Below, piece by piece: positions 1,280-57,247 of a stretch of DNA of 64,000 nt. A program made the translations under genes and the position numbers. The first letter of the stretch is position 1, and every line of letters starts with the position of its first letter. The DNA comes from Rhizophagus irregularis (Eukaryota; Glomeromycota; Glomeromycetes; Glomerales; Glomeraceae), in the NCBI RefSeq assembly GCF_026210795.1, contig NC_089429.1, forward strand, positions 3,906,001 to 3,970,000, given 5' to 3'. The notes below the pieces were generated by a model that had not been told where the DNA came from, did no database searches, and worked only from the letters and a program-made list of their open reading frames with translations.

Positions 1280-2930
1280 TATATTATATGTAATATGATA
1301 TAATAGAAAAATATATAAAATATAATAATAAAATATAAATTATGCCGTAATAAAATATCAATACTAAAATGGTGTTTATTATATAATTAATTTAAGTAAT
1401 TTAATTATATTAATTTCTATTAATCAATTAGCAATAAAAAAATAATGCTTATCGAATACAAGCTGCGTTGAAACTTGTTTAATAAGCACTTAAATTAAAT
1501 ATTCTTAAAGCATTTAATAAATGGTTGGTAAATGCTTAGGTTAACTTCGTGATGATGGTACTGAAAACTTTGTTAGATCTTCAGAATATACGCGATATAA
1601 GTATAAAGAGGCAGGCAAACAGTATCCATGTGATTCGCTGGAAATTAACTATTTCAAATCTGCAGGTATTAATTTCTCAAATTTTAACAATAATTGTGAG
1701 TACGTGCAACGAGTTTTCTGAAACATAAGATAGTATATCATATATCCGTATATTCATATATTCATGTATTCAATAGTTAGCTATATAATACAATAAATCG
1801 ATATACTTTTTACCCACTATACTGCCACGATGCATGTAGTAGAACAGTGTACGACATAAATTAGCACGTTTTCAATCCTCGTTAAAGTATATATGATGTA
1901 ATAGGTGATACACCGCAAATCATCTATCTGCTTGTGCGACAAATTAATTTTCACACATAAGCCCAGAATATTTTGAATTTTTTCCCTATCTATCTGAATA
2001 GCATTTATTTATGAGTTTATTTCCTCTGATGCTAGAGGCTATTCCTACTAGATTTCGACCAGAGTATATTTATATAATGTTACTAGGCCTTTATTACTGA
2101 GCGGTCGGGCAAGTGAAATAAAGAAAAAAGTCTGTATATGCATTGTCCCCAACACCATTCTAAATGTCGAGATCTTCAATGCACATTCCGCATGCCCTTA
2201 TTCTTGAACATAAAATTTTGGCGTAAAAGTGCCTTGCATATTCTTCTACTTGATCCCAACATAAATTCAGGCTCAGAGAAGATGGTAAATGGAGATTTAA
2301 AAGGGCAAGTATATAGAATTCAAGTTATTTGTCGCTTATTATTCTTTCAGCGAAATTCTAACACTATATTTTCGTCATTATGTCTTCTTTCGCATTATAT
2401 GAAAATATTTATAATTTTTTACTTGATTCACCCTCAGACCATATTACTGCATTTTCTGTTATTTTTCAACTAATAGAAAATGATACGTGGTATCCAAAAA
2501 ATAAGTTAAGAGAAATAATTCATCAGGCAATTATAGTAGTGAAAAAGAATTACAATCAGACTTCGAAAAAATATCTAAAACTCGTTGATATTCCCTTAAA
2601 GATTAGTAATTATTACTATTATTTATCAGATTATAATCCCAAATGATGATTGCGCAGAATAATATTTTTATAACCAAATTAAGTGAGTACCCATAGCCAT
2701 GTGGGCACAGGTTTTATCAGATGCATTAATTCCTTAGACACACAAGGGTGGATCTTAGTTATGGTTTATGAAGAAAAAATATAGCATTCATGTACATTGT
2801 TAATTGTATGCAGGCCACATATAGTTGATAATTTACTTGAAATATGTTGATAAGTGTGCGCACATGATTCTAATATCAAAAGATTAATTACATTAGTACT
2901 AATATAAGGCTTCTGCGCTAGTTTGATGAT
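1280..2930. other. AT-rich region without a convincing gene
   Basis: Nothing strong is seen. Short open stretches exist at 2138-2473 and 2380-2646 on the plus strand (111 and 88 codons, overlapping in different frames), but neither has a recognisable motif. Around 1530-1670 the sequence is less AT-rich and may be a fragment of a decayed exon. Confidence 0.3.
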
Positions 2931-2945: not shown

Positions 2946-4320
2946 AGTAGTCTTCAGAATATCAAAGAATCAAAACAGGAAGAACCGCTCACTAAGAATG
3001 AAATCAAGACGAACTTGCGTGTCTTGAAAACCAATCTTAAAAATAGCAAGGCTCCATACACCTACCACTTCCGTAAATATTTAAAGAAGAAAAGTGCTTC
3101 AAATTTATCATGGCGCGTTCTACTTGCTAGTCAAGTGATTTGTGCGGATTCAGAAATGGTGAGAACTTTGGAAGTAGAGGCATATAACTTTTTTATGGTA
3201 AGTAATTTAGCAAATAGTGTTTTGTATTACCATAGTCTACTTTCTGCAAAGAGTATTTATTATATTAATATTGTGATCTCTATAGGATCCGGCAGAGCGT
3301 ATGAAAGTAACTGCTCCAAATCTTGTCAAAGATAATTGTGATTCCTTTGTTTTGAATTTCATAGACAGTATTACAGATATCCCAAATAATAGACTTTACA
3401 TGATAAAAGTTGGAAAGAATCTAACGAAAAACTAGGAAAAGTTACGTTAGATATACTCAATATCTTGTAAGTATTTCAGTAACGAGCCTTAATATAATAT
3501 AATAATCATATTTGCCATTTCTTTTAACGAAAAATAGTGTTTAACATTATTTTTATAGGAGAGATATTTGGAAAAATTCTGCCTTTGGCCCAAAGTTGGT
3601 TAAGTCACAAAGTGAAGGGACATATATGACTAATGTGATAGTTCCAATGATTCGAGCATCATTAAAAGATCTTCCAATTGGGAAATCTGGTTATATTTCT
3701 ACAGCTGAGCGTCAAAGTATAGCTAGTAAAGATCGAAGAGGAATTGGAAAATGACCAGATGTTATATTTATCGCTAGTTGTAATGAAAGAATATATGAAT
3801 TAATTTATTGTGAGAGTTCTCGTATCATTTGTGATGAACAAAAAAAGGAAAATGATAAGGTAAAAACTTGGAGAGAGATGAATGTATTGGGCCCACAAAG
3901 GATGCAAACTGGACAAAGATGAATTTGGTATTATTGGAATCCAAGTTGCTGGAACTAAGATGTATCTAAATATCCTCATTCGAGGTATGGATGAGATACA
4001 TCGTTTCTATAATTTACGTACAGTTAAAATTCCGATACAACCAACAGATGTTTAAATTCATCGAAATTTTATTAACAATAATATGGGTATGTGGAATGCA
4101 GTTCTTATTCAAATTTTTATTTTACTTTCTTAAAATTAACACATACTTATAATTATAGAATATCTTGCATATCAATATTTCTCTTCTATATTACGCGCTT
4201 CCAACTAGTTCAAGTAGTAATACAGAAAATAGCTCCACTGTATCTTCTTCACCAAGATCATCATCACCACCAAAAATGAAAAAAAGAAAGTCTATGAAAT
4301 TCGAAAAAAAAATAATCTAA
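2946..4320 (+). pseudogene. Broken copy of a multicopy lineage-specific gene with three introns
   Basis: A reading frame opens at about 2946 and continues through three likely introns with GT...AG borders: 3198-3285, 3467-3558 and 4087-4158. The central exon reads as a block with IVPMIRASLKDL and STAERQSIASKDRRG, followed by PDVIFIASCNERIYELIYCE. After a frame change come DEFGIIGIQVAGTKMYLNI and a polar tail rich in Ser before TAA at 4318-4320. I recognise the block order from a large protein family of unknown function in Rhizophagus; that is memory, not a search. Lesions: an in-frame TGA at 3752-3754 where a CGA Arg codon fits, and a frameshift at about 3880 just after WREMN. No function is assigned. 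Confidence 0.6.
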
Positions 4321-4716
4321 TTGTTGTGTATATTACCGTTCAATAAAGTGCCCTGGTGGCCAATTATTTTTTATATATTCATCTGTTTTTTTTGTATGGG
4401 ATACACACCAGATAATAAAAATTTTTCTTGGCAAATTTGCGGGACTGCGTGGTCTCGGAAAACATGTGATTTTTTACTTTTGAATATTAACATACTAATA
4501 CTATATTACGCTAGCATGCAATCCAAAATAGATGAGACTGATTCATTGAAAATATACATTGCCAGGCTTGAGCTCGAGAATGATAAAATTAAGGTTGAGA
4601 ACAATAAAATTAAGGCCAAGAATCTTGAGCTTAAGGCCAGAGTTGTGAAATTGGAAGACATGCAATTGCAAAACGTATTAATAAAAAATATATTATCTGT
4701 ATCACAAAAGACATGA
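4321..4716 (+). pseudogene. Remnant of a lineage-specific gene ending in a coiled coil
   Basis: The open stretch has an aromatic, possibly membrane-associated start (residues about 10-35) and a strongly heptad-repeating end (residues about 65-120, with LELENDKIKVENNKIKAKN). Similar repeats of ARLE and AEN units occur in large Rhizophagus families. It stops at TGA 4714-4716, six bases before the target duplication of the 11.6-kb element, so the downstream part may have been lost when that element inserted. It is probably a fragment rather than a working gene. Confidence 0.35.
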
Positions 4717-4726: not shown

Positions 4727-4771
4727 ATTTTGGTGAAATTTCTTCAGCGCTGGGGTACCCCTGCCAAAATG
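4727..4771. repeat. Left terminal inverted repeat of the 11.6-kb element
   Basis: Starts directly after TATTA. ATTTTGGTGAAATTTC and the GGGGTACCCCTGCCAAAA block match, with small gaps, the reverse complement of 16303-16338. Confidence 0.55.
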
Positions 4772-4980
4772 ATTTTTTCTTGCTGACCAATGGTCGGGTG
4801 TCATGTGCATTTTTGATCAGAGTTTTCTAGCAGATCTTTCGTGATATTGACGCGTATAACTATATCCTGGTAGACTTCGTCTATATGGGTGACAGAATGC
4901 TCAGAATTCTTAGATTCTCAGAATTTTTCTTATAAAATTTCTGAATCTATAAAATTTTCAAAATTTTTTATTAGTTACCT

Positions 4981-5693
4981 ATGGTAACAATGACCGGTAT
5001 ACTAACACCAACTTTTCACGTATATTACTCAAAGCAACTTAACCAGCTCCCCCATTCCATTAAAATAGATACATGGCGATGTCTTACTTCACGAAAACAT
5101 CTATTATCGATAGAACAGGCAAGTAGTATCCACCCCGAAGTGGAAGATTTGTTAAATAAGGCGGTTGGAAATTATATTAACTGAAGCAAAAAGAGCGTCA
5201 GAAGATGAAGCCTATTACCCGCGACTGTGAAAATTTGTTAAGAAAAGAAAATGAGGAGTTGTATATATCAAAGCGGGTATTGGAAAAAAAGATTGAAGAG
5301 CTTCTCGACTTGCAAGAGCAATATAAGTCTTATGAAGTAGCCATGACCAGGTCTTTAAAAGAGAGTGATGGAAAAGTCACCCAATTATCAGATTCGGTAG
5401 CTTTCTTCAAAAGTATAATTCCTGATACGAGAAAAGCCATTGCATCAGCTGAAAAGTCCATTGACATATTAGAGAATAAATGCTAGCATCTGGAGGATAT
5501 TATTTCTGCTAAGGATAGGAAAATTATCACTCTTGTTGATCAGATCCTTTCCAAAACGAAGCATAGTGATGTGACTATAGAGCTGGAAATATATTCTAGC
5601 ACTCATGAAAGGAAATTATGGGCGAAGAGGCGTAGTGAATCTGAACATGATCTAGAAACTAGGAAAAATATACATTTCGTCCTTAGTACCTAA
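4981..5693 (+). pseudogene. Coiled-coil gene 1 of the Polinton-like element
   Basis: It starts at ATG 4981. A first segment of about 67 codons is followed by a frame change around 5160-5205 into a charged, heptad-rich segment with CENLLRKENEELYISKRVLE and VTQLSDSVAFFKS. An in-frame TAG at 5484-5486 interrupts it, but the same frame stays open and helical to TAA 5691-5693. The stop lies 7 bp from the 3' end of the oppositely oriented ATPase gene, the spacing of a compact element. The function is unknown. A structural or scaffold role in a particle is possible by analogy with the neighbouring genes, but nothing in the sequence proves it. Confidence 0.5.
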
Positions 5694-5700
5694 GAAAATT

Positions 5701-6429
5701 CTACTCATTAGCGAGAGGTACATCCCAGCCAACGCGTATCCTGTATGGATGTTCGCGAGGTACAGTTAGATCGAAAACAACGAATTTTTGTTCACATAAA
5801 TGCTTATCAATAATTTTAATCACATTATGCCAGTCATTAGCATATTGATGCACATAAATAGGCAGATATGTGTGAGATTTTTTTGTATTATCTTTGGGCA
5901 GTCAAAGTAACTCTGGGATACATATATCAAACTGATGTTATAGTGGCGCCCTTCGACGAAATAAGGAATAATTTTCTCTTGCACTTTTTTCAGATCAGCA
6001 TATACATCTTCGAATATAGGCACTGTACCTCTATCTGGAGAGAATGAATCCACCTTAGGGATTTTATCAGGCTTTATAGCCCGGAATGTAATATTTTCAC
6101 GGTATGGCTTTAGACTATTTGCAATTATCTGATACGCCGATTTGAGGTACATATATTTCGGCTCCTTAAGATTGTGACCAATGAGTAGCAAATCATCATA
6201 CTTGATGTAACGTGTTCCTCCTTTCTTCCCATTAAACATTTGATAAAGCTTATTTTCGAGCATGAAATTGAGAACTTCATTAGTTTTTCCTGAATTAGTA
6301 CGGCCACAAATTAGAAGGGTGAAAGGCCATTGGGGGACACTTGGATGTCCATTATATTTTTGGGCATCTTTAATATCGTTGATGTGATATACGAGCCTAT
6401 CAACTGGCTCGAGCTTTTTACTTTCATAT
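5701..6429 (-). pseudogene. A32/FtsK-HerA-type genome-packaging ATPase
   Basis: A P-loop is read on the minus strand as CGRTNSGKT (Walker A, 6282-6305), preceded by a WPFTLLI strand. A Walker B strand PIFEDV lies at about 6003-6021, and a downstream VSQSY motif resembles the SQ sensor of A32-like ATPases. Proteins of this type pump DNA into the particles of Polintons, adenoviruses and large DNA viruses. The frame is open from about 6429, without an ATG I can assign, to 5820. After a frameshift at about 5855 a second frame continues the C-terminus ([15 protein letters not shown]) to TAG at 5701-5703. The 3' end faces coiled-coil gene 1, and the nuclease-like gene lies just upstream. The family call is firm from the motifs; this copy is inactive. 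Confidence 0.75.
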
Positions 6430-6497
6430 TAGACTATCTATTACTAATGATATTCTAAAATAATCTTGCAATTTTCAGCGACGGCCGTCGTCCAAAT

Positions 6498-7109
6498 TTA
6501 TTTTTGAAGGAGAAGGAATCCTTTCTCGATTAGAGTATGTCTGATATAGGACAAGAGGTCAGCTGTGTACGGGACTTCAATGAAATATATTTCTTGATTT
6601 TTGCATATATCCCGCTTCTTCTGATCACGCTGACTTTGTGTTTTTAAACTTTCGCCTCCTTCAGTCTCCCGATGATAAAAACTATTGTGATGGTAGTGTT
6701 GAGGGTCCTGGAATTCGAATGCAAGACCCAACTCTTTGTTATATCCATTGAGATGCATTCTATTCAAGAATGATGGTCTGCAGGATGGAAATTTCTTGCC
6801 TAATAGATCCTCAAAAATATATTGGCATTAACGTTCACCGGTAGTGTGGTGGTATAGAGGACACCATTCAAATTTTTTCATATATTTTAGTGGATACTTC
6901 CACTAATACGCACCATTTTCACAAAACCAAAGATATATGTTATGACCATTTATTCGCCCAGTCCTTTCTAGATGTTGACCACCATGTCTTCTGGCATAAT
7001 CAATAGCTTGATCTAACTCGTTATTGATAGGAAAAGCATATGCAATATGTACAGATAATATGTTTTGAGATGGACGACCAACCCTTTCTGGATCAGCTAT
7101 TAACATGAG
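6498..7109 (-). pseudogene. Zinc-finger plus PD-(D/E)XK-like nuclease, in frame with the integrase C-terminus
   Basis: Downstream of the integrase, in the same reading frame, comes a degenerate treble-clef-like segment (CENGAY, then FEWCPLYHH, where WCPLC would be expected). It is followed by a block with [36 protein letters not shown] and IYFIEVPY. This pattern of an Asp/Asn-Gly-Tyr turn, a Glu-x-Gln strand and a downstream basic helix matches nuclease-like proteins I know from large DNA viruses and from glomeromycotinan families (memory only). In-frame stops interrupt it at 6903-6905 and about 6829-6831. It ends with TAA at 6498-6500, just upstream of the ATPase. Whether the intact version is a separate protein or fused to the integrase cannot be decided here. 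Confidence 0.5.
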
Positions 7110-8166
7110 CTCCTCTGTTACAAATCCTCGCTTTGGAGCAAATTCATCATCATCACTTCCGAGATAATATAAGACCAGCTCATTCTTTATAACAACAACT
7201 TTTCAGATTCTATGGAAACTTGGGTTGAATGTAGGGTCAGTTGCACGCTTCTCATTTTCCATACCCCTTCCCATTCTGCATTGGCAAGTAGGTAGTGGAC
7301 GGTATTTCCTTTCTTTAACCTTATTTCATCTTGTCCAACTGGGCGCTTATATTTTGTGGATGGTCTAGATTCGACTCGTTCTAAAGCAATAGCTTTCACA
7401 GGTTTAAGTCCCCATTTTTCTGATCCTGGTTCTCAAATAAGGCGCGTGGGATAGTTATTTAGATAATTAATAACCACTGGTAGAAATCTAACCCATGCTC
7501 TTATTAGTTTAGGATCAGAAGATATTAATTCAATAGCATACTGGATCTTGTATAGAATCTTCGAAAGTGTTTGATTGAAACGCTTCACAAATGCAAGACC
7601 TCGATGGAAATATGGACCGACCACTCGAATTGTGACATTATGCTCTTGCATTAGTTGAGAAGTCTCGCCCATCCATTCTCGCCTATTATCTGTTTAAAGT
7701 AATTTAGGATAGGTAAGAGAATTATTAGGGTCATCATAAATTTTTCTGAACGCTCTAGCAACTTCTGAACTATTCTTAGATGTGAGCGGAACTGAAGCCT
7801 TGTATTTGGAGGCGCAGTCTATAATGTTAAGTACTGCTTTATATTTTTTACCTCTATAGTGATCATGAGTAAAAAATAGTATATCGCACTGGTATACATA
7901 ATTAGGGCATATTATTCGCCATAGCTGGCTCTAGGAATGTATTTTGGAGAGGTTTTATTGATTTGGTATGACTCTTGATTTTCTAAAAAATTTTTGCATT
8001 CACTTAGGTGGAATCGATGCCCTTCTTTTTTACATGCGTCTCTTAAGGATTTGGGATTAGAATAATATCTAGTCAGGCAATAATATACATCACGCAATAT
8101 AAGATTTTTTTCGATTCTTTTAGCCTCATCAGGATCTATCACAATTTGCGGTTGGCTCATTCTCAA
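7110..8166 (-). pseudogene. Retroviral-type (RVE, DDE) integrase
   Basis: It starts at ATG 8166 with an N-terminal helical segment (LRDVYYCLTRYYSNP). After a frameshift near 7905 the catalytic core reads YQCDILFFTHDHYRGKKYKA (first Asp), then IIDCASKYKASVPL, TDNRREW (second Asp) and LAFVKRFNQTL. At the last site the expected catalytic Glu of a VERFN motif is Lys. A second frameshift near 7262 leads into a chromo/SH3-like C-terminus ending [13 protein letters not shown]. In-frame stops at 7694-7696 (TAA), 7433-7435 (TGA) and 7203-7205 (TGA) each fit a single C-to-T change from Gln or Arg codons. It would catalyse element insertion, in keeping with the 5-bp target duplication. It diverges from coiled-coil gene 2, whose ATG is only 44 bp away. 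Clearly dead. Confidence 0.75.
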
Positions 8167-8209
8167 GGTAGGATTATTATGATGGTACTATAAATTAGGA
8201 TGAAATACC

Positions 8210-9280
8210 ATGTTTGATCCAGCATATTCACAGCTTTTAGATACTAACCAGGAGCTTCGTAGTGAACTTCGAGATGAAATTTCTATTAATAAGAGTAATG
8301 AGAAAAAACTTCACTCTCTCGTGAAAGAGCTTGAGCAATGTTATCGAACTATCTCATTACAGGATAATACTATTATAACCTATGAGAAAGAGATAGAGAA
8401 ACTTAAATCAGAAATATCTAATTTGCGAAAACAGCTTAGGGTTTTACAACAGGATAAAAAATTCAAAGATGATGTTAGGTCTATTCAAGATGGCCGAATC
8501 ATAGAGTTTGAAAATAAGGTAGAACGTTTCAAGGCAAGAATCCGGATTTTCATAGACAAAAAAATTCCAATAGATAATTTAGATATGGCAACGACTAATC
8601 TTATTGGAAATGTTAATAGAAAGTTAGAACGAATTGAAAATCACATTAGGAGAGTCAGTACGCCTATGCAGAATCCTGCCAATGTTATAGATGGTATCAA
8701 AGGCTCGTTAAATACTATTCAGGTTACTTTGCAAAATATCACAACTGAAAGGGATCAATATCAGAACCTATTAAATGATTCAATTTGGCGGGTAGATGAT
8801 CTTAGAAATCAGTTAAATGATAGCGGAAATCAGAATTTACGATTACAACGTTTATTAGATGAATTCTGTGTTCAGGTTGAAAGAACTATGAGAGAAAGGG
8901 ATGTAACTATAAGGGGAAGAGATAATGCTTAAGAAGAGCGGGATATGGCTATTCTGGCTTATAATAATGAGAAAAAAGAATCCTGCCGTTGGTATTTCTC
9001 ATATCGGGATAAAGATAGGCGTGTTCAAGAATTATTGCGAGAAAAGTTTGCTAAACAGATATTATGTCAGCAGAATGTTAACTATCTTTAGCAAAATACC
9101 CGACAGTTGCAAACTAATGCTCAAAACTAAGTAAATAGGATGTTAGTCATTATAGCAAGAAAACAAACCCGCATTGGCAAATTGATACGTGAAAAGTTTG
9201 TTTTCCAGCTAGTGATTAGGCAAAGAGACCAGAATATTTTAAATTTGTAGGGACAAATTTTGGCGCTTCAGAATAACTGA
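8210..9280 (+). pseudogene. Coiled-coil gene 2 of the Polinton-like element
   Basis: An ATG at 8210 opens 240 codons of nearly continuous heptad repeats (residues about 10-100 and 170-240, with LKSEISNLRKQLRVLQQDK). After TAA 8930-8932 the same frame continues through three more stops, TAG 9089-9091, TAA 9128-9130 and TAG 9248-9250, to TGA 9278-9280. All four internal stops fit Gln codons (CAA/CAG) hit by C-to-T, so the original product was probably about 356 residues. The C-terminal part is Arg/Gln-rich (RDKDRRVQELLREKFAKQIL). The gene ends 14 bp before the Gag-like start, suggesting a co-transcribed pair. I recall similar Arg/Asn/Gln-rich coiled-coil proteins in Rhizophagus; the function is unknown. 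Confidence 0.55.
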
Positions 9281-9294
9281 ACCTAATTGTAAAC

Positions 9295-11430
9295 ATGGCC
9301 GATGCTAGACGTTTACCAGTATTAAATTTGATTGCACCTATTCTTGCTAAAAATAAGCCGTATACAGGCCAAGAACCTTCTGATAATTATTTGGATAGGC
9401 TTATTCAATCAATATCATTTGCGCAAAGACATATGACTGTTCTTGAAAATGCAAATGCCGGAGATTTTGATGATGCTGTCAAGTATGATATTTATAAAGC
9501 TCCGTCAGATGGGAGGAAAATATTTACCAGTTCCTGCCTAAGACTCATATAATGGAAATGCTAATATTAATACTCCAGCTACTTTACGTGTTTGAATGAG
9601 ATCAAAATATCAACATGAAACAGTAGGTAGTCGGCAGTCAGCACTGCAAAGGTTAATTCAAGAAAGATTTCTACCCACAGATTCACCAGATACTTATGAA
9701 AAAAGAATCTGACCTTTATTATTAGGTGTAGCGGATGGTGATGTCCAAACTGTAAGATTTCTTAAGAATCACTTGTTAGGTAATCTTTATACATGGATGC
9801 GAGCTGTTGCTCCTGCCGGTATTGATGCATTCTTTACACAACTTAAAGATATGTGGTTGGAGCGTGCTCCCAATCTAAATGGAGGTCAAAATTATCAGAG
9901 TAATTCTTCAACTGAGATTGATAAGTTAAATTCCAAAATAGCCTCCCTTGAAGCACAGTTAGTTCAACTGATTCAGGCACAACCCCAAAATAATGATGCC
10001 TTAGAAAAGATGTATATACGCGCAGTGCGGTTAGGAATGCCAGTTGATGCACCAAAAGATCTTACATCCTTAGATAATTATATTAATGATGAATTAATAA
10101 GGAGATTGGGCGTTGCTAATACCAATTACACCAAGCTTTCCAAAAAATACTCTCAAATGGTTAATGTGGTCAAAAAGTTAGCCAAGCATAAATGCTCTAA
10201 TTGTGGTAAAGCTGGCCACAATTCTCGTAAATGTCTCAGAAAAAAGAAGAGTAAGTCTAAAAAAGGTAAAGTAAATCTTGCCACTTTAGATTTAGGTTCA
10301 GATTCGAACACTAACTCTGATAAGTCGTCTGATGACTCTTCTAATTCTAGTTTGAGTTCTTCATCTGAATTCGAGTCTGAAGCTGATATTAATGTTAACA
10401 TTACTAAGGCAAAAAAAAAGTGAAGAAAGAATCAAGTAATCCTTCCCCTCCACTAAAAAAGAAATCAAAGAGCCACCTTACGGCCAAGTCTCAAGAGGTA
10501 ACAGATATAGAGACAGCTCCTTTGGTCTCAGCTCCTTTCTCTAAAAAGAAAAAGCGAAGTTCAAAATCCCTATCACAGGATAATTAATTCCGCTTGGAAA
10601 ATATTATTGAGAAAATTATTGAGAAGGTGCTTAATGAAAAGTTTGGCGCCATTATAGCCTTTTTTCAATCACAGAATTCTGCTTTTAGAATACTGGTTAA
10701 TAGTAGAGATGATCTCACTTCGAATACTCCTGAAACTCCAGACTCAGATAAAAAGACGAAATTCTAAATGAACCTATAGAAATCGATTTTGTTCAGAAAA
10801 AGGATCCTGCCACTGATGTTGTTACTACTAAGTGTAAAATCAAGCATCTGATCATTCCGGTTGCTGTGGTTGATTCTGGTGCTAATTTTGCAATTATGAC
10901 AGATGATATCTCTAAACGATCAAAGCTAGAAATTGATACAAAAGAAAAACATGATCTCAGAGGTATTGCTACTACTCCCACAAAATCTCTTGGAATTGTC
11001 AGAAATGTCCAGTAAATTTCACTTCCAGATGTACTATATATGCTGATTTTGCTGTAGTTAAATACCCTAAGCCGATACTAATCTTACCCAACACACTTCT
11101 TGATAAATATAATTATGATTTACTTGCATCAAAGCAGGAATTGAGACTAAAGTGTAATGGTAAGGAATTTTTTATCCCAAGTAATATGCATAAGGTCAAA
11201 AATAAGCTTGAGGTGAATTGTGCGATCACTACTTCCAAATGTGATGAATCCTCGACCCCGAACTGTATTTCGCAGGATTTAAGTGAGGATTATGATGTAT
11301 TAAAAAAAAAGTGAGTTATAAGGAACTTGAAAAAATGCTATATAGCACTCTTAAGTATAATGCAGAAATCAATAAGTATTGTGAAAGATTACAGGCACGC
11401 TATAATGAACTTCTTGCCGAAGACGCTTAA
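9295..11430 (+). pseudogene. Gag-like, CCHC zinc-knuckle and retropepsin polyprotein
   Basis: One degenerate gene of about 710 codons. The N-terminus (ADARRLPVLNLIAP, NKPYTGQEP) and the middle segment (SRQSALQRLIQERFLPTDS, PDTYEKRI) form a helical Gag-like domain. A knuckle CSNCGKAGHNSRKC (C-x2-C-x4-H-x4-C) is encoded at 10193-10234, followed by basic and Ser/Asp-rich tracts. Further on lies an aspartic protease: VVDSGAN with the catalytic Asp at 10872-10886, then IATTP and, after a frame change at about 11030, ILPNTLLDKY. The tail is helical and ends at TAA 11428-11430. Stops at 9539-9541 (TAA), 9593-9595 (TGA), 9710-9712 (TGA), 10585-10587 and 11013-11015 fit C-to-T or G-to-A. There are frameshifts at an A-run near 10415 and near 10765. 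No reverse transcriptase follows. Gag and protease next to Polinton-type genes is unexpected. Confidence 0.65.
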
Positions 11431-11447
11431 GGCAGAGAATAGGCGAG

Positions 11448-11966
11448 TTATTTTTCTAATATATTCTTCATATTTGCTATATTTTTTATGTTTCTTTCAA
11501 CTATCTTCTCATACAACGTGAGAATTGGTTGAGACTGGATAGGAGATGGTATTAGCGGTGGTATCCCATCCTTGGACTTCGATTTCTTCCCTTCGGCCTT
11601 TTTTGCCTTTTCACCTTCTTCCAAAAGTGAATCAATAGATTTGCTAGACTCTATCTTAGCATCATGTATTTGTTTTTCTAGCTCTGTAAATGGAGAAACA
11701 TCTTGGTCTTGGATCTCTGACTTAGTCCGCCCGCCTACAACATTTATATTAGAAAGCGAAACAGTCTCTCCAGGAGCAGCTGTTGACATATGAATTGGTT
11801 GATTCCACACAACCCCATTTTTTTCTTCACCTTTCCAGATCTGATAAATACGTTTTTGTGATGTACAATATTTATCTGTTAAATCCTTTAAAACTTTATC
11901 TCTAGGCTTTTTTTCAGCACATTGCATAATATGATCATAATCGGCTGGTGAAAAAGGGGGCATCAC
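11448..11966 (-). CDS. Small HTH-like protein of the Polinton-like element
   Basis: Intact 172-codon frame. The first 50 residues resemble a homeodomain-like helix-turn-helix: a basic helix with KKPRDKVLKDLTDKY, then CTSQKRIYQIWKGEE as the putative recognition helix. The rest is polar, with Lys/Glu-rich and Ser/Pro-rich stretches and a C-terminal amphipathic helix (LTLYEKIVERNIKNI). A sequence-specific DNA-binding or regulatory role in the element is plausible. The stop lies 17 bp from the convergent Gag/protease gene. The start is shared with a divergent intergenic region facing coiled-coil gene 3. I recall related short proteins in Rhizophagus but cannot name a family. Confidence 0.55.
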   Translation of the reverse strand: MMPPFSPADYDHIMQCAEKKPRDKVLKDLTDKYCTSQKRIYQIWKGEEKNGVVWNQPIHMSTAAPGETVSLSNINVVGGRTKSEIQDQDVSPFTELEKQIHDAKIESSKSIDSLLEEGEKAKKAEGKKSKSKDGIPPLIPSPIQSQPILTLYEKIVERNIKNIANMKNILEK

Positions 11967-12241
11967 ATCTCATGCGTCGCCTAAGCATAGTAGCAATATT
12001 TTTTTTTATATCTAATATAATACTCCGAAATAATTTATTAAATAGGATATATATTATTCTGAATATATAGGATATACAGGATATACAGGATATATAGGAA
12101 GATATTATTCTAGACGTATAGGATATATGGGATAAATAGGATATTTAGAAAGATTGTATTATTCTGATTGTATAGGATAAGTTTATTATCTCGGAAATAA
12201 ATTCATACATTTTTTTTCTAATATATAACCATGCTGATATT
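11967..12241. promoter_or_regulatory. Divergent intergenic region with GGATATA repeats
   Basis: 275 bp between two diverging genes of the element, the only longer non-coding gap between its genes. It contains clustered direct repeats of GGATATACA and TATAGGATAT and a repeated TATTATTCT motif at about 12049, 12105 and 12158. It is the most likely place for promoters of both genes. No experimentally recognisable element is visible. Confidence 0.35.
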
Positions 12242-13018
12242 ATGTCCAATGTGCATACATTAAATGATATAAAAGATAGAGAGGGTGGTTCTTATAAAAA
12301 ACCTGGTCATCGGCTAGGTAGTGCATATGAGCAAGAGCTCAAAAAAAAATTAAGATCTGTTACCGAATTTAACTCTGAGATTAATGATCTCAGTGAAAAG
12401 CTGGTAGATAAGTACAATGAGCGAGAAAAGGAGTCTCAGCGAACCTATGCTGATATTAGAAATAAGATTAGCCAGTTAAATGCGTCCAGTGCTAAAGTTA
12501 AATCCCAGCTTATTTCTGAACGGAAGTCTCATTCTGAGAGTTATCGTGAGCTTGAAGCCAAATATACTGCCGAAATCAAATCGCTCAAATCTTCTATTAA
12601 ATCATTGAAGAGAGAGGCAACTTTGGCCCAGAAAGTTTCGTCCGCCGACAAGATCAAGATTCTTTCTCTTGAAACTAAAGTACGTGAATTGGAAGGTAAG
12701 TTGGATGACTTGGAACTAGAACAGGTGCTCCACGATTTGAATGCAGTGGGAGGGGTGATAGAGGAGCCAGCCCAATCTGATCCTAAAAAGATCGATTCTC
12801 TCAGGCTTGAATTGGATCGAGTGAAGGAGGACCTTAATTCAAAAAATTATGAAATAGAATGTATGGAAAAAGGGAAAGAGGTGTCGGATAACATATACAA
12901 ACGGGAGCTAGATATTCGGTCTTCAGAACGATTAAAATTGATGGAGGAAAATAGTTCCCTCAGGGACCAGTTAGCGTTAAAGAAAGAGCCAAGAGGCGCT
13001 TCGCATAATGAAGTAGAT
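12242..13018 (+). pseudogene. Coiled-coil gene 3, 5' part, cut by a transposon
   Basis: An ATG at 12242 opens an uninterrupted frame. It has a short polar head and long coiled coils (residues about 30-75, 80-165 and 185-245; KTKVRELEGKLDDLELE-like heptads). The annotated stop at 13058-13060 lies inside the terminal repeat of the element at 13020, so the last 13 residues (TVTPLYSEPRYSE) are transposon sequence. Past that element (flanking TA) and the foldback element that follows, the same frame resumes at about 15592 with a membrane-anchored tail. The empty-site product would therefore be a coiled-coil protein with a C-terminal membrane segment. The body itself carries no nonsense codons, so disruption may be recent. 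Confidence 0.6.
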
Positions 13019-13019
13019 A

Positions 13020-14610
13020 CAGTCACCCCTCTCTACAGCGAACCTCGATATAGCGAATAACATGATATAACGGATCATACAATGTGGTACCGATTTTAAA
13101 TATGAAAAAAACCTTGATATAACGAAGTTTACTATTTATTTACCATATAACATAGTACGAAGTAAAGTGTGTGAATTTCTTATATAAAAATGCCTCTCGA
13201 TATAACGGATTTTTTTTATAACGAATTTTTTTCAGTTATAACGAAAAATTTCTTTATAATTAAATGTAATTATTAATAAATATTGATGCATTATGACATT
13301 AAATATCACCCCTGTGTTTTATATTTAAATTATGGATCAGGATTGTATCAGGATCGTATCAGGATTAATAATTCTGGCTATTTTATTTAATATTTAGGCA
13401 GAATTACATTAATTTACATTAATTCGGTTGTATTAGGATTCGATGTGAATTGTTATTAATTTATATTTATCACAGGGGTAAGGACACTCCTAGTTAAATT
13501 AATATATCATTAATAATTTATTTATTATATAGTCAGTTATTGTTAAACAGCATTCCTACAAAAAAAAGGAATTATAATAAACCTTTTTATATAGAACACT
13601 TCAGGAAGCATTCCCTATAATAAAAAAATAAAAAAAGAACATTAGTAAATATTCTTAAACGAAATTAAAAGAAAAAATTGAGTTGTCCCACTTACTTCTT
13701 GTCTCAAGCGTTCATTTCGAAGTCCCTACAATAAAAAAAAATAAAAAAGAATATTAGTAAATGTTCTTAAACGAAATTAAAAGAAAAAATTGAGTTGTCC
13801 CACTTACTTCTTGTCTTAAGCGTCCATTTCAAAGTCCCTACAATAAAAAAAATAAAAAAGAACATTAGTAAATGTTCTTAAACGAAATTAAAAGAAAAAA
13901 TTGAGTTGTCCCACTTACTTCTTGTCCCAAGCGTCCATTTCAAAGTCCCTACAATAAAAAAAATAAAAAAGAACATTAGTAAATGTTCTTAAACGAAATT
14001 AATAAAAAAAATCGAGTTCCCCACTTACTTCTTGTCTCAAGCGTCCATTTCGAAGTCCCTACAATAAAAAAAATAAAAAAGAACATTAGTAAATGTTCTT
14101 AAACGAAATTAATAAAAAAAATCGAGTTCTCCACTTACTTCTTGTCTCAAGCGTCCATTTCGAAGTCCAGGAAGTTCCCTATAATAAAAAAATAAAAAAA
14201 GAACATTAGTAAATGTTCTTAAATAAAAAAAATTGAGTTCCCCACTTACTTCTCGTCTCAGGCGTCCATTTCGAAGTCCAGGAAGTTTCCTACAATAAAA
14301 AAAATAAAAAAAGAACATTAGTAAATATTTTTAAACGAAATTAATATAAAAAACCCCCCAGTTCCCACTTACTTCTCATTCTAGGCATCTATTTTGAAGT
14401 TTAGAAAGCACCCCTATAAAAAAAAGATTAAAAAAAATGTTAAATTATCAGTAATCAGATCAACAAGTCACATGATCTGTATAACCGATATTCCTATACC
14501 GAAGAATTCATTATACAATACCGAATAATTCGTTATAGTGTTAACGAAGTTGCTTATAACGAAGCCCTGATCAGCTGGAACCTAGGGTTCATTATATCGA
14601 GAGGGGACTG
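13020..14610. mobile_element. pogo/Tc1-like non-autonomous element flanked by TA
   Basis: The left end CAGTCACCCCTCTC and right end GAGAGGGGACTG are inverted copies continuing into CGATATA-AACGAA-like repeats. TA lies on both sides (13018-13019, 14611-14612). The subterminal regions are full of ATATAACGAA motifs. No transposase is present. The interior holds the exon/intron-like array at 13690-14400. It is inserted in coiled-coil gene 3 of the Polinton-like element. Confidence 0.75.
13690..14400 (-). repeat. Tandem exon-intron minisatellite (array 2)
   Basis: Seven units of 110-118 bp. Read on the minus strand, each unit is a 30-nt block starting GGACTTCGAAATGGACGC and ending ACAAGAA, then GTAAG, then an AT-rich stretch with TTTACTAATG about 30 nt before TTATTGTAG, then the next block. 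Exon-like blocks lie at 13696-13725, 13808-13837, 13919-13948, 14029-14058, 14139-14168 and 14250-14279, with a degenerate seventh near 14375. The introns would be about 81 nt with consensus donor, branch point and acceptor. Each 30-nt block keeps the frame and encodes GLRNGRLRQE or close variants. Two copies have CGA changed to TGA. The units at 14139 and 14250 extend to about 40 nt. Confidence 0.7.
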
Positions 14611-14626
14611 TACTCTCAATGTCGGA

Positions 14627-15596
14627 CAACTTCCCGACAACCTTTTTCCTGACATACCCTTTGCCTGACAATGATTACCTGACAAGACATATTCCCAAAT
14701 GTATATTTTACCGACATGACACATTCCCTAATAGACATTATACCTACATGTTAGTTTTCCCGACATGACATTATCCCGACAACACATATCCCAACAGAAA
14801 TTTCCTGACATGTTGAGATGATTTACAAAAAGTAAATGTATCATGTTTATAAATATAAATATAAATGACTGTTATTAACAGTTCTTTATTTTCCTTTTTT
14901 TTCAATGTGATTTTTCACGACCAGCATGGTTTATATATATATATATATATATATTTAATAATTATTTCATTTTTTTTAATAATTTTTTAAAACCGTTTTA
15001 ATTTACTTTTTTATCTAAATTTATTTTTAATTTATTATCATTTTTTTTAAAAAATAACTATTTTATAACAATTTTTTTTTAAAAAAAGGTTTCTTAAACC
15101 GTTGTACTTTATAAGACATGGATATATTTAATAAGACAATTGTCTTATGGCAAATTCTTTTTTAAAAAGTTGTTAAAAAAATAACTGGAAATAAATAAAT
15201 GCAACTAAAATAAATTTTTGTAGGGACACAACGGGTTGCTGCAAGTTATTTTATTAAAAATTTGCACTATTAAAATGAAATATATAGTGTACATGAAATT
15301 GCGAATTTTTACTAAAATAAATATATGAATAAACAAATAAAAAAATTTTCTCCATATGTTTTATTTTAAATAATTGGGAAATTCGGGAAATCGCTTTTTT
15401 TAATGTATATGTCATGTCGAGAAAATGTCTGTCGGGAAATGTGTTGTCAGGATAATGTCATGTCGGGAGAACTAACATGTCGGTATAATGTCCATTAGGG
15501 AATGTGTCATGTTGGTAAAATATACATTCGGGAATATGTCTTGTCGGGTGATCGTTATCAGGCAAAGGGTATGTCGGAAAAAAGGTTGTCGGGAAA
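14627..15596. mobile_element. Foldback element with about 200-bp inverted arms of TGTCGGGAA repeats
   Basis: The left arm (about 14627-14820) and right arm (about 15400-15596) are long imperfect inverted copies. Both consist of repeated TTCCCGACA/TGTCGGGAA words separated by CATGT and TATTCCC motifs. The centre is AT-rich with a (TA)n tract at 14934-14955. It has no coding capacity. The exact borders and target duplication are ambiguous because the flanks resemble the repeat word. It lies just right of the element ending at 14610, also within coiled-coil gene 3. Confidence 0.6.
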
Positions 15597-15930
15597 TCGT
15601 GGTGTAACCAATACTCTACCCCTGCCTATGAATGATTCATCACAACCTTCCACTCTTAATCCTTCGTCCCAAATAATTTCTGTGGGTGGCACAGAAGCGG
15701 TATCTTTACAGGCGACTGCTCTTATCGTCACGAGCTTCTTGATGTCGCCTATATTAATATATTCTATACTTACCTTACTACTTATTGCAATTATATGGAT
15801 CGTGGTTGGGAAAAAAATATGGAATATATGGAAAAAAAGTAACCAATTTTTCACCTACGAAAATTATATAAATAGGGATCATGCAAAGCGCCTTTCGCCC
15901 AGACCAGATCATTATTATTTTCAATCCTAA
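15592..15930 (+). pseudogene. Coiled-coil gene 3, 3' part, with a membrane segment
   Basis: Just after the foldback element an open frame reads GNRGVTNTLPLPMNDSSQPS and then a Ser/Thr-rich linker. A hydrophobic region of about 45 residues follows (ATALIVTSFLMSP, ILIYSILTLLLIAIIWIVV) and then a basic tail (GKKIWNIWKKS) ending at TAA 15928-15930. Conceptual removal of the two insertions brings this frame into register with the 5' part at 12242-13018. The stop lies 4 bp before the convergent 112-codon gene. The upstream part of the open frame (from 15502) is foldback sequence, not gene. Confidence 0.5.
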
Positions 15931-15934
15931 TCGA

Positions 15935-16273
15935 CTACCGTATAAGTACTGGCGCAAATGGAACATCTTTGAATCTTTTCTTGGTGTGAGCTAATAGCTT
16001 TTCTGGTAAATCTTTGGGCGGATTTATTAAGACTTTTTTAGCTTGGACCACTGTACATGCTAATAACCAGCCAATATGGATCAGGTTACCTCCTTTACCA
16101 TTATGACCATGCTGTAGTAAATATCGATAGTCGTCCATTACGATATCTGCCATTCCTTCCTGATCTGCTATTATTTTACGAAACACCCACCTATCATCTT
16201 CTGTGATTGGGAGACGAATTTTGTTAGGTTCGAAGCCTATGTACTGGGAAACTTGGTCGCGTAGTTCAGCCAT
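15935..16273 (-). CDS. Conserved 112-residue protein of the Polinton-like element
   Basis: Intact frame from ATG 16271-16273. It has no membrane segment or signal peptide. It is a mix of charged helices (DDRWVFRKIIADQEGMADIV) and a Gly/His-rich centre (HGHNGKGGNLIHIGWLLACT), ending KRFKDVPFAPVLIR. I recall near-identical proteins in Rhizophagus, always uncharacterised. It is the gene nearest the right end, starting 30 bp inside the terminal repeat. Its preservation among decayed neighbours is notable. The function is unknown. Confidence 0.55.
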   Translation of the reverse strand: MAELRDQVSQYIGFEPNKIRLPITEDDRWVFRKIIADQEGMADIVMDDYRYLLQHGHNGKGGNLIHIGWLLACTVVQAKKVLINPPKDLPEKLLAHTKKRFKDVPFAPVLIR

Positions 16274-16302
16274 TATACCAATAAAGCTTATCTAAAATAT
16301 GT

Positions 16303-16338
16303 GTTTTTGGCTGGGGCCCCGGCTGAAATTTGCCAAAT
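16303..16338. repeat. Right terminal inverted repeat of the 11.6-kb element
   Basis: TTTTGGCTGGGGCCCC and GAAATTTGCCAAAT match, inverted and with gaps, the left end at 4727-4771. TATTA follows at 16339-16343. Confidence 0.55.
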
Positions 16339-16343
16339 TATTA

Positions 16344-16843
16344 TATGCGAAAAATACTAATGATCATCTCTGGGCATATCCGAGGCTGAGCTATATGATC
16401 GGAGATCAGAGAGATGTTCGCTTTGCAAACTCAGGTCGAATATAGAAATTGAAGTTAACCGGTAAATAAATATCACGAAAAATAATTCTAAGACAATGTT
16501 GTACAAAATAAATCTGGCCAATAAAATTTGTTGCGGTCACGTTACAGTAAATTTTTTGGTGGTGTTCTTGGGGTAGTTAATCTTGGTGTAATAACACTTG
16601 TTGCAATAATAAAAACAAATTCTGTCACACAAACAACTAGTACAACTAGTGACAACTTGCGATAAAAAAAAATCATCCCACGATGTCGTATGATCTTTAT
16701 TAGTTTTCTTTTTTGTATTTAAGCCATTAAGATAGCCATTACTTCTTATAAATAAAATAAAATAAAATTTAAGCCATTAAGATTTTTAGGGGTTTCGAAA
16801 ATTACTTTTTTGCTTACAGTTAATATTAATAAAACGGAAAATA
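16344..16843. other. Intergenic region upstream of the membrane-protein gene
   Basis: No open frame of interest. A short direct repeat AAGCCATTAAGAT occurs at about 16722 and 16772, and AT-rich sequence precedes the ATG at 16844. It probably contains the promoter of the downstream gene; no specific box can be assigned. Confidence 0.35.
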
Positions 16844-31482: not shown

Positions 31483-33503
31483 ATGGGTAAAGATAACAAA
31501 AAGAAAAATAACCAGTCTAACAAAGATACTACATCTAAACGTCCTGCCTCTAGCTCTCCAACTGGCAACGTTTCTGGTCAAGGTTCCTCTATGTCTGGCC
31601 CTTCGAACACTCCACCTTCGACCACCTCTACTAATAAACGTACCAGAGTCAGTGCTGACGACTCTGTCATGGATGTTGATAAACCTCTCACGCCTCCTGG
31701 CCCTGTTGAGACAACTTCCGCTGAGATACCTTCTCAACCCGATACCTCCTCTCTCGATGCTTCGCAACACGCCCCTGCTAACAACAACGATAAAGGCAAA
31801 AGCCCTGAAATTACTCCCGCAGTCTCCTTCCCTGAACGTGCTGCCTCTCCGGACGCGTCCCAAGCTGCAGTACAATCTCAACCTACACTTTTCTACGCCT
31901 CGGCCGCTCCTAATGATGTCAATGGCTTTTGGAATCACTTCGCTTCGAACCGTGATGCGTGCGACGCAGTTGATTGACAACTTTCCTTGTTCTCCTCTTA
32001 TGGTAGTCGTGCCACGTGTAGTGGATCCAACGATTTGAAGAGGATCATCGTACATTTCCGAAAAAAGGATGATCTAGACAAAGCCACAGCCTCCCCTATA
32101 GATTCTTTGTTTGGTTTGCATTTCCATGCATATGACCCCCAGGCTATTAAGGCAGATGAACACGCGCGTACCCTGGTGGTTACCGATATCCCCCTTTTTC
32201 TAACTGACGCTCTTTTGCGTAGTACCTTTTCTCGTTACGGCAATATTACTCGTTGCCATACCCGTTTATCTAAACTTTATCGTACTGCATACATTACCTT
32301 TGAATCTACTGGTGCTTTACAGAACCTCGACTCTACCTGGGGCGTCCTTTGTGGAGGACATTGTTTGCGTATCTGCCCCGCTACTTTCTCACCTGAATAA
32401 CGCGCTGAAAGACGCGCTTATGTTGCTTTACTTGCCGGTCTCCCGCGTGGCACTATAGTGGTCGATCTTGCTGAAATTGCCGATGAAATTTCTGCTAAAT
32501 CTATCAATGTTCCCTTCTCTATGAATTCTTACAATCCCAAACCTTACGCCTATTGCCATTTTGCCTCGAAACGGCTATGGAAAATGCTAAATCTATTTCA
32601 TGTGCCCTCAAGAAAGTTGGCCTTACCTGGCATTCTCCGGATGAAGTCACTTCTCTTTGTCATCGATGTGGTCGCCCTAATTGTAACCCTGATCGATGTG
32701 GTTCTTCATCTAGACCTAATCGCCCTTCTCGCCCTTGGCAATCTAATGATAAATTACGTGCTTTATATAATAAGCATCTACCTCCTTCTCATCCTGCTAA
32801 ACGACATAACCGTTTTGCCCGCCCTGATAACAATAATGATGGACAAAGCCGTACCAATGCTTCTCGCCATCGTTCTAAATCCAGACCTAACAACCGACAA
32901 CAATCTCGTTCTCGTTCTCAATATCGACCATGGAATCGCGACAATCTTAATAACAACAATAATAATCAACGTCGTGGTATTCCTGATGCAAATGAACTTG
33001 ATCACTATGCTGATGGCATGGATGTTACATACCCTGCTCCTCCTACTGTGCTTACTGATTGGAAATCTATTGGTGCTGCTCTTAAAAAAGTAGTTGAAGA
33101 ATTAGCCCTTCTTACCACACAATTTGCTACCATGAACAGCCGCATCACTAATTTGGAATCTGCTATGGCTGCTCGTGCTCCTATTCCTGGCCCTTTTGTC
33201 ACTAAACCTCCTTCCTACATCCCTTCCTCTATGCAAGGATGGGATGATACAGTGAATCGAAATGATAATAATATCCTCGTTGATGTTAATTCTCCTCCTT
33301 TGCAATCAACAAGTGGTTTTTCCCCAATTCCTCATTTTGCTCCCATTCCACCTTCTAACGTCACCCCTTCCTCTCCTATTGATATGGAACAGCGACTCTC
33401 CTCTCTTTCTGACACTGTTGCCTCTTTGGCTGGCTCGATTAAAGAAGGAATCCAACAAAACAACCTCATCCTAGCTCGGCAACAAGGCCAAGCTAATCAA
33501 TAA
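31483..33503 (+). pseudogene. LINE 1 ORF1 (RNA-binding, zinc knuckle)
   Basis: The ATG at 31483 opens a Lys/Ser/Thr/Pro-rich head. After TGA 31975-31977 the frame continues into an RRM-like domain (RTLVVTDIPLFLTDALLRST, TAYITFES). After TAA 32398-32400 it continues again, then shifts near 32570 into LTWHSPDEVTSLCHRCGRPN (knuckle CHRCGRPNCNPDRC). An Arg/Ser/Asn-rich region and a C-terminal helical part follow, to TAA 33501-33503. LINE ORF1 proteins bind the element RNA. ORF2 starts 49 bp downstream. The two stops fit TGG/CGA to TGA and CAA to TAA. Confidence 0.7.
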
Positions 33504-33552
33504 TTGTTCTCTTTTTCCCTCTTCTTTATTACCGATTTATCAGGGTGTAATA

Positions 33553-52155: not shown

Positions 52156-53379
52156 TTATATTATTATATATGGTTCAAATATTTCCCTATCAAAATATTC
52201 CTTTAATAATTCTCCATTTACTGGTCTTCTTAAAATTCTTCCATTTAATTCTTTAATTTTGTACGATCCATTTATTATTACTTCATGTATATAATATGGT
52301 CCCTTCCATTTTTCTTCCAATTTTCCTGTATGTGTTTTGTATTTCGCCGTGTCAAAGTATAATACTTTATCTCCTATTTGAAAGTTTTGTTTTCGTTTTC
52401 CAATTTTGTCATGATATTTCTTTTGTTGTTCTTGTGCTTTTTCAATATTCTTCTTCGCTTCATTTCTTTTTATTGGTAATTCTTCTATTATATGTTCTAT
52501 TCTTTTAATCATTGTAATTCCTTTAACTTCTTCATCATTTGGTAATATTACTCTTCTTCCATAAGTTAAATAAAATGGTGTCATTTTACTTGATTTTTGT
52601 ATTTTACTCCTATATGCAAATAATATTGGTGCTATTCTTTGATCCCAATTTTTATCTTCATATTCTCTATTTCTATATATCGTTAATTTTTCTTTTACTA
52701 ATTTTGCCAATGATTCTATTAATGTTTTATTAAATCGTTCTACTAATCCATTTGTTTTAGGGTGATAAGGAGTTGAGAATTTATGTTGAACATTAAATTT
52801 TTCTGTAAGATCTTTAGTTAATTGATTATTAAATTCTGATCCATTATCTGTAAGTATTTTCTTTGGACATCCATGTCGACAAATTATTTCTTCATAAATG
52901 AATTTTGATATTTCTTTTGCATTTGCTTTTTTTATTGCTTTTGCTTCTAGCCATTTTGTAAAGAAATCTATTGCTACTATTATATATTTATTTCCTTCTT
53001 CTGTTCTTGGTAATGGTCCTATTACATCTATTCCAATCATATAAAAAGGTTCTTTTACTTCTATTGGATGTAATTCATGTAACCCTTGTGGATTATTTCT
53101 TCTTTGACAATTATCACAACTTTTTACATATTTTTCTACATCTCGTTTCATATTCTTCCACCAATATTTTTCTTTTACTTTTTCATATGTAGCTTGAATC
53201 CCAAAATGTGCTGATAATTCATGATCATGCATCATATACATTATTCCTTCTAATTCAAATCTTCTTATTACTCTAAACTTATTTTCATCTTTAATTTTAT
53301 ATAAAACTCCATTTTCTTGTACGTATTTTCCTTCTTTTTCTATATTCTTTAAAATTTTATCATATTCTTTTTCATCCAT
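52156..53379 (-). CDS. Gypsy integrase
   Basis: 407 codons. The zinc-binding head is HDHELSAHFG...CDNCQRRN (HHCC). The catalytic core is GIDVIGPL (Asp), LTDNGSEFNN (Asp) and TNGLVERFNKTL (Glu), all three present. The C-terminal part reads FQIGDKVLYFD and GKLEEKWKGPYYI. It inserts the cDNA copy. It lies in the same phase as the reverse transcriptase frame but is separated from it by about 200 bp with several stops. In another frame (about 53513-53370) a short open stretch VERIGLEIYIFII may be the true link. Otherwise intact. Confidence 0.85.
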   Translation of the reverse strand: MDEKEYDKILKNIEKEGKYVQENGVLYKIKDENKFRVIRRFELEGIMYMMHDHELSAHFGIQATYEKVKEKYWWKNMKRDVEKYVKSCDNCQRRNNPQGLHELHPIEVKEPFYMIGIDVIGPLPRTEEGNKYIIVAIDFFTKWLEAKAIKKANAKEISKFIYEEIICRHGCPKKILTDNGSEFNNQLTKDLTEKFNVQHKFSTPYHPKTNGLVERFNKTLIESLAKLVKEKLTIYRNREYEDKNWDQRIAPILFAYRSKIQKSSKMTPFYLTYGRRVILPNDEEVKGITMIKRIEHIIEELPIKRNEAKKNIEKAQEQQKKYHDKIGKRKQNFQIGDKVLYFDTAKYKTHTGKLEEKWKGPYYIHEVIINGSYKIKELNGRILRRPVNGELLKEYFDREIFEPYIII

Positions 53380-55008: not shown

Positions 55009-55040
55009 CTTTAATGTCTCTCCACTATTATGGCCAAAAC

Positions 55041-57212: not shown

Positions 57213-57247
57213 ATCTAATAATATATTCTCTTGAAATAATTCTTATA

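Follow-up and report, generated by a model that had tools for sequence, protein, structure and literature searches.

What kind of mobile element carries a DNA-packaging ATPase and an integrase side by side with a Gag-type coat protein and a retropepsin-like protease? The question is raised by a stretch of 64,000 nucleotides from the arbuscular mycorrhizal fungus Rhizophagus irregularis (NC_089429.1, positions 3,906,001 to 3,970,000, or G000:C1:3906001-3970000, in an assembly of 146.7 Mb and 32 contigs), here called the window, in which a preliminary description had placed a Polinton-like element of 11.6 kb between positions 4727 and 16338. We find that the window element is a decayed, right-truncated copy of a larger multi-copy family. 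Judged by their sequences, the members share a co-inherited cassette of an A32-type ATPase, an integrase-nuclease, a coiled-coil-Gag protein (sometimes with a CCHC knuckle), a retropepsin-like protease and a coiled-coil/membrane protein, with a B-family DNA polymerase (PolB) beside most loci. We consider it probable that they form an integrating, virus-like DNA family of glomeromycotinan fungi, about 39-45 kb long, that uses a Gag-type shell and of which the window holds a decayed copy. No earlier description of this family was found in the literature searched; in the open-licence literature, preprints excluded, no title or abstract opening describes a Gag in such an element, which does not prove that none has been published. 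The closest relatives of the proteins encoded in the window carry the names of R. irregularis and other Glomeromycotina.

The family was surveyed by searching the genome with four segments of the element; the result lists largely overlap in place, and their counts are lower bounds. Twenty places chosen from these lists were fetched and, together with the window, make up the 21 loci against which 13 reference proteins or protein pieces were scored. The ATPase, integrase, nuclease, Gag coiled coil, protease and coiled-coil/membrane protein were each matched in all 21 loci, the Gag shell domain in 20, a 118-residue protein and the first coiled-coil protein in 19 each, and a 188-residue protein in 18; gene order and strands agree throughout (21/21). 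Among the matches listed, an integrase/ATPase place lies within 15 kb of 28 of the 32 Gag/protease places, and 28 of the 38 integrase/ATPase places have a Gag/protease neighbour at no greater distance, the zone searched being 0.8% of the genome. The exceptions are Gag/protease places on C25 (two), C29 and C6 and, conversely, ten integrase/ATPase places. Gag/protease and ATPase genes, which might never have co-occurred in other copies, are thus found together, and the proposal of a distinct, multi-copy integrating group of Glomeromycotina that carries ATPase, integrase, Gag-like and retropepsin-like genes as a unit is borne out. A later insertion and the broken genes of the window copy might suggest a chance nest of unrelated elements, an explanation that is refuted by the common order and the co-location and to which we give practically no credence.

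Ratios of nonsynonymous to synonymous substitution rates (dN/dS) were calculated as pairwise medians over stop-free stretches at synonymous distances of 0.05-1.5; the pairs share sequences and are not independent, which takes weight from the medians of 0.16 for the protease (42 pairs), 0.15 for the integrase (19), 0.15 for the nuclease (72), 0.18 for the ATPase (4), 0.11 for the Gag coiled coil (3), 0.28 for the 118-residue protein (52), 0.30 for the first coiled-coil protein (17), 0.36 for the 188-residue protein (5) and 0.48 for the coiled-coil/membrane protein (31). Protease and ATPase show purifying selection. On the whole, the genes of the element were kept by selection during the spread of the family, the case for the shell being weaker; several genes are degenerate in many copies.

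The polymerase had been supposed to be missing or supplied by the host; it is missing from the truncated window copy only. The search for PolB in longer relatives that had been advised in the preliminary description was successful: the right flanks of five copies all hold a minus-strand B-family DNA polymerase, broken in some, and a PolB place lies within 12 kb of 19 of the 21 loci, the two without one being L015 and the window. A genome search with the PolB protein gave 71 matches grouped into 31 places, 12 of which touch no fetched locus. The open PolB frame of L029 matches PF00136 (E 7e-41) and the exonuclease family PF03104 (E 6.6e-17), with no match to the protein-primed family PF03175. 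Best among the PDB matches were entry 8ywg, which we take to be the African swine fever virus DNA polymerase, and its kin (748 bits, residues 78-1073, E 1.4e-223), compared with 81 bits for polymerase delta. In a genome search with PF03175, 91 of 181 candidates were scored and none matched at the 31 PolB places. The same search yielded at least 63 genome matches, including C9:1348281, so that the genome also contains many polymerases of the true Polinton or plasmid kind, separate from the family described here. As a further observation, the PolB proteins P0230 and P0236, which carry the names of Paraglomus brasilianum (identity 80%) and Funneliformis geosporum (identity 91% over 71% of the query), are unexpectedly close to the R. 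irregularis PolB for such distant hosts, which points to horizontal spread or to cross-contamination of cultures.

Where does the complete element end? The right end of the C8, C4 and C11 copies is a palindrome of 48-50 bp (AGTGGGATACCAC...GTGGTATCCCACT), perfect except for one unpaired central base in C4. This pattern occurs at 19 sites of the genome, against none for the reversed control, and six same-contig pairs, those of C23 and C32 among them, each enclose a Gag/protease place and an integrase place. The paired palindromes span 38,831, 42,312, 45,078, 60,067, 79,476 and 87,536 bp, and the three longer intervals (60.1, 79.5 and 87.5 kb) are assumed to contain nested insertions. In the four pairs whose letters were compared, the palindromes are identical within the pair or, in C4, reverse complements of each other; because there are only four such pairs and one palindrome type recurs at the unpaired site C9:1936105, this identity counts for little by itself. 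Seven of the 19 sites have no partner under the pairing used, and nine have a PolB place within 13 kb. Four single palindromes (C15:4650508, C14:2712457, C11:2855597 and C3:614985) lie 1.7-2.5 kb from a PolB place with no partner found, and are probably copies with one end lost or mutated. Pattern searches revealed a 5-bp target duplication in both copies tested: the right flank of the C8 copy starts with GATCG and that of the C4 copy with ATGTT, and the same letters directly precede the left palindromes. A palindrome at each end would suit a linear genome with hairpin ends, such as asfarviruses possess. A candidate left terminal repeat in the joined C9 stretch (8813-8860, about 50 bp long) was dropped, being not palindromic and abutting another gene.

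These ends also bear on the asfarvirus-type polymerase. DNA polymerase sequences of R. irregularis were reported to branch within Asfarviridae in the available part of PMC5294986, and a 1.5-Mb asfar-like insertion is present in one strain of the fungus according to the sections available of PMC10640383. The loci could therefore be scattered fragments of a giant, asfarvirus-like endogenous virus left after chromosomal rearrangement. We regard this as very improbable in view of the discrete palindromic ends, the 5-bp target duplications and the integrase gene, none of which suits such fragments, and of the A32 ATPase, which the 1.5-Mb region lacks as far as the same sections go.

Is the element then a Polinton? 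It shares with Polintons/Mavericks and Polinton-like viruses the state of an integrating DNA element, the retro-type integrase and the A32/FtsK-type packaging ATPase, and in this respect the name Polinton-like was apt; since its PolB is not protein-primed, the name holds by analogy only. Integrase, A32-type ATPase and PolB united in one mobile element would fit an ordinary Polinton/Maverick. We nevertheless see next to no chance for this reading because of the polymerase, which is of the RNA/DNA-primed, asfarvirus type (PF00136, PF03104), the size and the target duplication, which is 6 bp in Polintons; the palindromic ends and the Gag and retropepsin-like genes are further differences. The three shortest bounded copies measure 38.8-45.1 kb, roughly twice the 15-20 kb given for Polintons in the accessible text of PMC4028283. 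Polintons have been noted in this fungus before: no capsid gene could be detected in the early "Polintons" of Glomus intraradices (now R. irregularis), and the later study, to judge from the available part of it, did not find one either (PMC7805220). "Maverick" repeats were counted in R. irregularis (PMC8647823, PMC11075540), and the word "gag" does not occur in the portion of PMC11075540 at hand.

Compared with the bounded copies of about 39-45 kb, the 11.6 kb first proposed for the window element is too short. The strings taken for inverted ends at 4727 and 16338 exist, but they are internal, because homology with other copies passes through both (on the left to about 4340-4470 in three copies, on the right to about 16486) and remnants collinear with other copies extend left to 1540, well beyond the start first assumed. 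The TATTA duplication fares no better: since motifs of this kind recur at window position 4428 and at two places within the C4 copy, the match is most likely coincidence. Right of about 16486, other copies continue into the DNA polymerase gene, and here the window copy is truncated; its integrase, first coiled-coil gene (CC1), Gag gene and protease are each broken into several frames. The features of the window copy are as follows.

1540..1725, plus strand: remnant of a left-hand gene of 375 residues, with homologues in L034, L016, L017, L021, L022 and L024 (47-58% amino acid identity, E down to 5.8e-19)
2362..2646, plus strand: small left-hand gene, homologous to L035:6203-6442 (32% identity, E 5e-11)
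3545..4052, plus strand: further left-hand gene remnants, collinear with L034/L035
4516..4716, plus strand: short coiled-coil open reading frame (ORF), common to L009-L011 (59-69% identity)
4990..5486, plus strand: coiled-coil gene CC1, broken (95% covered by two high-scoring segment pairs, two stops; an open frame of 242 residues in L026)
5820..6428, minus strand: A32-type packaging ATPase, shortened (Pfam Pox_A32, E 2.3e-6)
6498..7202, minus strand: treble-clef and Vsr/homing-type nuclease part, broken; in L026 it forms a fusion with the integrase
7187..8187, minus strand: retro-type DDE integrase, broken, its catalytic E reading K (D-D-E family alignment)
8204..9276, plus strand: coiled-coil N-terminal part of the Gag polyprotein
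9277..10423, plus strand: predicted Gag-type capsid (CA) domain of type I, in broken frames (by sequence and the predicted fold of a relative)
about 10193-10234, plus strand: CCHC knuckle inside the Gag region, seen in the sequence
10752..11314, plus strand: retropepsin-like protease (DSGAN), broken into two frames (DSGAN fragment at 10752-11015; family profile)
11448..11969, minus strand: gene occupying the place of the 188-residue gene of the C8 copy, with no match to that gene at 1e-3
12176..15930, plus strand: coiled-coil and transmembrane gene CCTM, split by an insertion into ORFs 12176-13060 and 15499-15930 (collinearity gap)
about 12986..15610, no strand: later insertion of about 2.6 kb, foreign to the element (collinearity gap against other copies), with a tandem repeat array of about 110-bp units (13612-14423) and a 975-bp unit (14626-15600) that has 181-bp inverted repeats
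15935..16291, minus strand: conserved small gene, open for 118 residues (112 from the first M), matched in 19 of 21 loci
16292..16486, no strand: conserved stretch that leads from the small gene to, in other copies, PolB

The Walker ATPase noted earlier is a member of Pox_A32 above the curated Pfam cut-off, and an intact copy of 263 residues scores better still (2.8e-10). The nuclease-like protein likewise found its counterparts, in the phage nuclease families phrog_27771 (5.5e-10) and phrog_9084 (1.7e-8). As for the DDE integrase, its family assignment stood, the frame aligning with the D-D-E family, whereas the window gene itself is a broken remnant in which the third catalytic residue is K (FVKRFN) instead of the E (VERFN) of others; open integrase frames with this change are found in P0106/P0116 and in the window. 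In comparisons with the PDB, the single integrase sequence gave no match and only the family profile did, with integrases or Pol polyproteins making up 59 of the best 60 of 86 rows. A scan of viral contigs with the integrase family returned 56 pattern matches, none of which was confirmed, and PHROG and Pfam matches of the coiled-coil proteins were set aside as coiled-coil noise. Nine Polintons that lost the capsid gene also lost the ATPase and the maturation protease, according to the available text of PMC4028283; set against this loss, the retention and constraint of the ATPase in the present family argue that something is still packaged.

What, then, could form the shell? An internal control was at hand in a complete-looking Ty3/Gypsy element of the same window (52156-57242, minus strand), with Gag including a CCHC knuckle at 55608-57242, retropepsin at 55041-55592, reverse transcriptase at 53581-55074 and integrase at 52156-53382. 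The Gag, CCHC, retropepsin-like and integrase parts of our element resemble those of this Ty3 element, the two integrases matching by HHalign with E 1.3e-9; the Gag scores stay under the Pfam cut-offs. The element is not a Ty3 element itself, as judged by the lack of a reverse transcriptase in the sequence read: that of the Ty3 element, searched with a threshold of 1e-2, had no counterpart in the 20 loci or in the extended stretches. Instead, a DNA polymerase and a DNA-packaging ATPase are present and the ends are short palindromes. Behind one common coiled coil, four types of shell region occur, and structure and profile comparisons place the predicted Gag domain with retroelement capsids. 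Among its nearest folds are Arc, PEG10, PNMA2 and the restriction-factor Gags Ty1 p22 and Drt2, which share the predicted capsid fold; these are host genes, whereas the Gag described here resides in a mobile DNA element.

Both the CCHC knuckle and the DSGAN protease named in the preliminary description are present, although the DSGAN fragment alone yields only sub-threshold Pfam matches (best 0.033). With the family profile of the protease, eight of the nine PDB matches up to E 10 were DDI1-type retropepsin-like domains (best 6.3e-6). We do not favour an origin from a host DDI1-like gene; because the gene stands behind Gag, a retroelement origin is preferred. The catalytic triplet reads DSG in the window, in Gigaspora and in most copies with a type II shell.

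A number of observations weigh against a working Gag-type shell. First of all, no particle has been seen. Foldseek with the Gag model gave no match at E <= 0.001 (best 0.47); the VIA scores for the Gag fold lie in a range that helical bundles can reach through their arrangement, and HIV capsids abound in the PDB; a second Gag model was poor overall, with a mean predicted local distance difference test score of 60.9 and a predicted template modelling score of 0.26. Retrotrans_gag was not among the families listed for any protein of the 31-protein type I set and appeared in only two of six later-scanned Gag proteins of the element, below the cut-off. In the PDB, Gag profile A2 found no retroviral capsid by sequence, only DDI1 (via its protease part) and coiled-coil proteins. 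With the Ty3 Gag of this window as query, 11 of the 20 loci are recovered, all of them of types other than type I, and tblastn with the Ty3 protease recovers no locus. In L018 the shell domain was recognised by eye only, and the CCHC pattern is missing in 10 of 21 loci, including L009-L011 and L025-L028. The type II shell gave a dN/dS of 0.21 for its C-terminal piece over 15 pairs when the length rule was eased to 80%; at 85%, a single type II pair was left (0.73 for the C-terminal and 0.62 for the N-terminal piece) and type I had no usable pair. Asp_protease scores of the protease lie below the Pfam cut-off, and its triplet reads DSC in C8-type copies and DPG in L009-L011 and L025, with open frames in L026 and L009-L011, so that the protease may be dead in those copies. 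Finally, the catalytic E of the integrase is K not only in the window but also in C8-type copies.

A conventional capsid is an alternative. In the left half of each of the two copies with the best-defined bounds, about 19 kb (C8:3458511-3477499 and C4:3979675-3998899) lie outside the sequence read, and a jelly-roll capsid that has diverged could be encoded there. The Gag-protease pair would then block retroelements or rivals in the manner of Ty1 p22, or carry RNA in the manner of Arc, two proteins that, like Drt2, are among the nearest folds of the Gag domain; the degenerate protease motif of some copies would also fit. We rate this as a serious though clearly less probable alternative. In Pfam scans that covered 10 ORFs of the window, 10 of the C8 copy and 14 of the left flank, no jelly-roll capsid, no minor capsid protein and no protease of the adenain type, the cysteine protease of adenoviruses, turned up. 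A genome search with PF04451 had no match anywhere and is uninformative because the controls had none either. Published searches of five R. irregularis strains by tBLASTn and hidden Markov models, for which capsids of several virus groups served as queries, were negative, as stated in the available sections of PMC10640383; these negatives are not absolute, because the A32 ATPase was not detected there either and yet is encoded here above the Pfam cut-off. The retention of protease and ATPase together in 21 of 21 loci also argues against this alternative.

Returning to the Gag-type shell, the genes suggest how such an element might work. A linear genome would be copied by the element's own PolB, probably via hairpin ends, and inserted by the retro-type integrase, which would yield the 5-bp duplications. 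The Gag domain may build a shell on the coiled coil, the protease may trim this shell and the A32 motor could load it with double-stranded DNA. Ty3-like retroelements would have supplied the capsid module, which would then have been exchanged anew several times at a single junction. Tentatively, and with the balance tilting slightly to the negative, this would make the family a double-stranded DNA virus or virus-like lineage in which a jelly-roll shell was replaced by an A32-loaded Gag shell with a retropepsin-like protease, its shell domain being repeatedly exchanged. A purely intracellular transposon, whose Gag coats or delivers nucleoprotein in the shared cytoplasm of the hyphae and whose ATPase serves transposition, is unlikely in our view. 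In its favour are the coenocytic hyphae of these fungi, the lack of a known extracellular form and the degenerate state of several genes in many copies; the constrained packaging-type ATPase, the protease beside Gag and the several exchanged shell types are more virus-like.

Among known systems, Asfarviridae and other Nucleocytoviricota resemble the element in the PolB, which matches 8ywg over about 1000 residues, in the A32-type ATPase and in the hairpin-like ends; the element differs by its size of about 40 kb, its own integrase and Gag-protease genes, and the lack of a detected capsid of known kind in the part read. A precedent for DNA viruses that mix genes of different groups is provided by the Bidnaviridae, which combine other parts, Gag not being mentioned in the available text (PMC4061559). 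Taken as a whole, the element in its workings comes closest to an integrating virus of the Polinton type that has asfarvirus and retroelement parts.

Some neighbouring observations deserve mention. An ORF within the bounded C8 copy (L034:6622-8000) encodes a TET/JBP-type 2-oxoglutarate oxygenase domain (PF12851, 6.3e-13) and is either a gene of the element or a passenger. Upstream of the C9 copy lies a compact row of plus-strand genes (L033:7624-8802 and L033:5605-5925) that includes a gene for a RING-finger protein, which matches zf-RING models at 1.7e-4 or less strongly, and, by eye, a ubiquitin-like ORF. The motif TTGGCAAATTT was considered as an upstream promoter signal, with 11 matches in 20 loci against 0.6 in shuffles, yet none in the C8 copy; it is not claimed, given two matches in the remaining 46 kb of the window and the relatedness of the loci. 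The window also contains two non-LTR (non-long terminal repeat; LINE-type) elements, at 33475-38942 (plus strand) and 44440-50118 (minus strand), judged by the appearance of the ORFs for their endonuclease and reverse transcriptase.

The Gag-protease unit offers a testable answer to why the "Polintons" of R. irregularis lack a recognisable capsid gene, as reported in PMC7805220, and why a search of five strains found no capsid gene, as reported in PMC10640383. According to the abstract of the latter, double-stranded DNA viruses that infect fungi are not known. If our reading is true, capsid modules, the basis of the highest virus ranks, would be swappable between retroelements and DNA viruses and thus between two realms, and arbuscular mycorrhizal fungi would harbor a DNA virus-like lineage.

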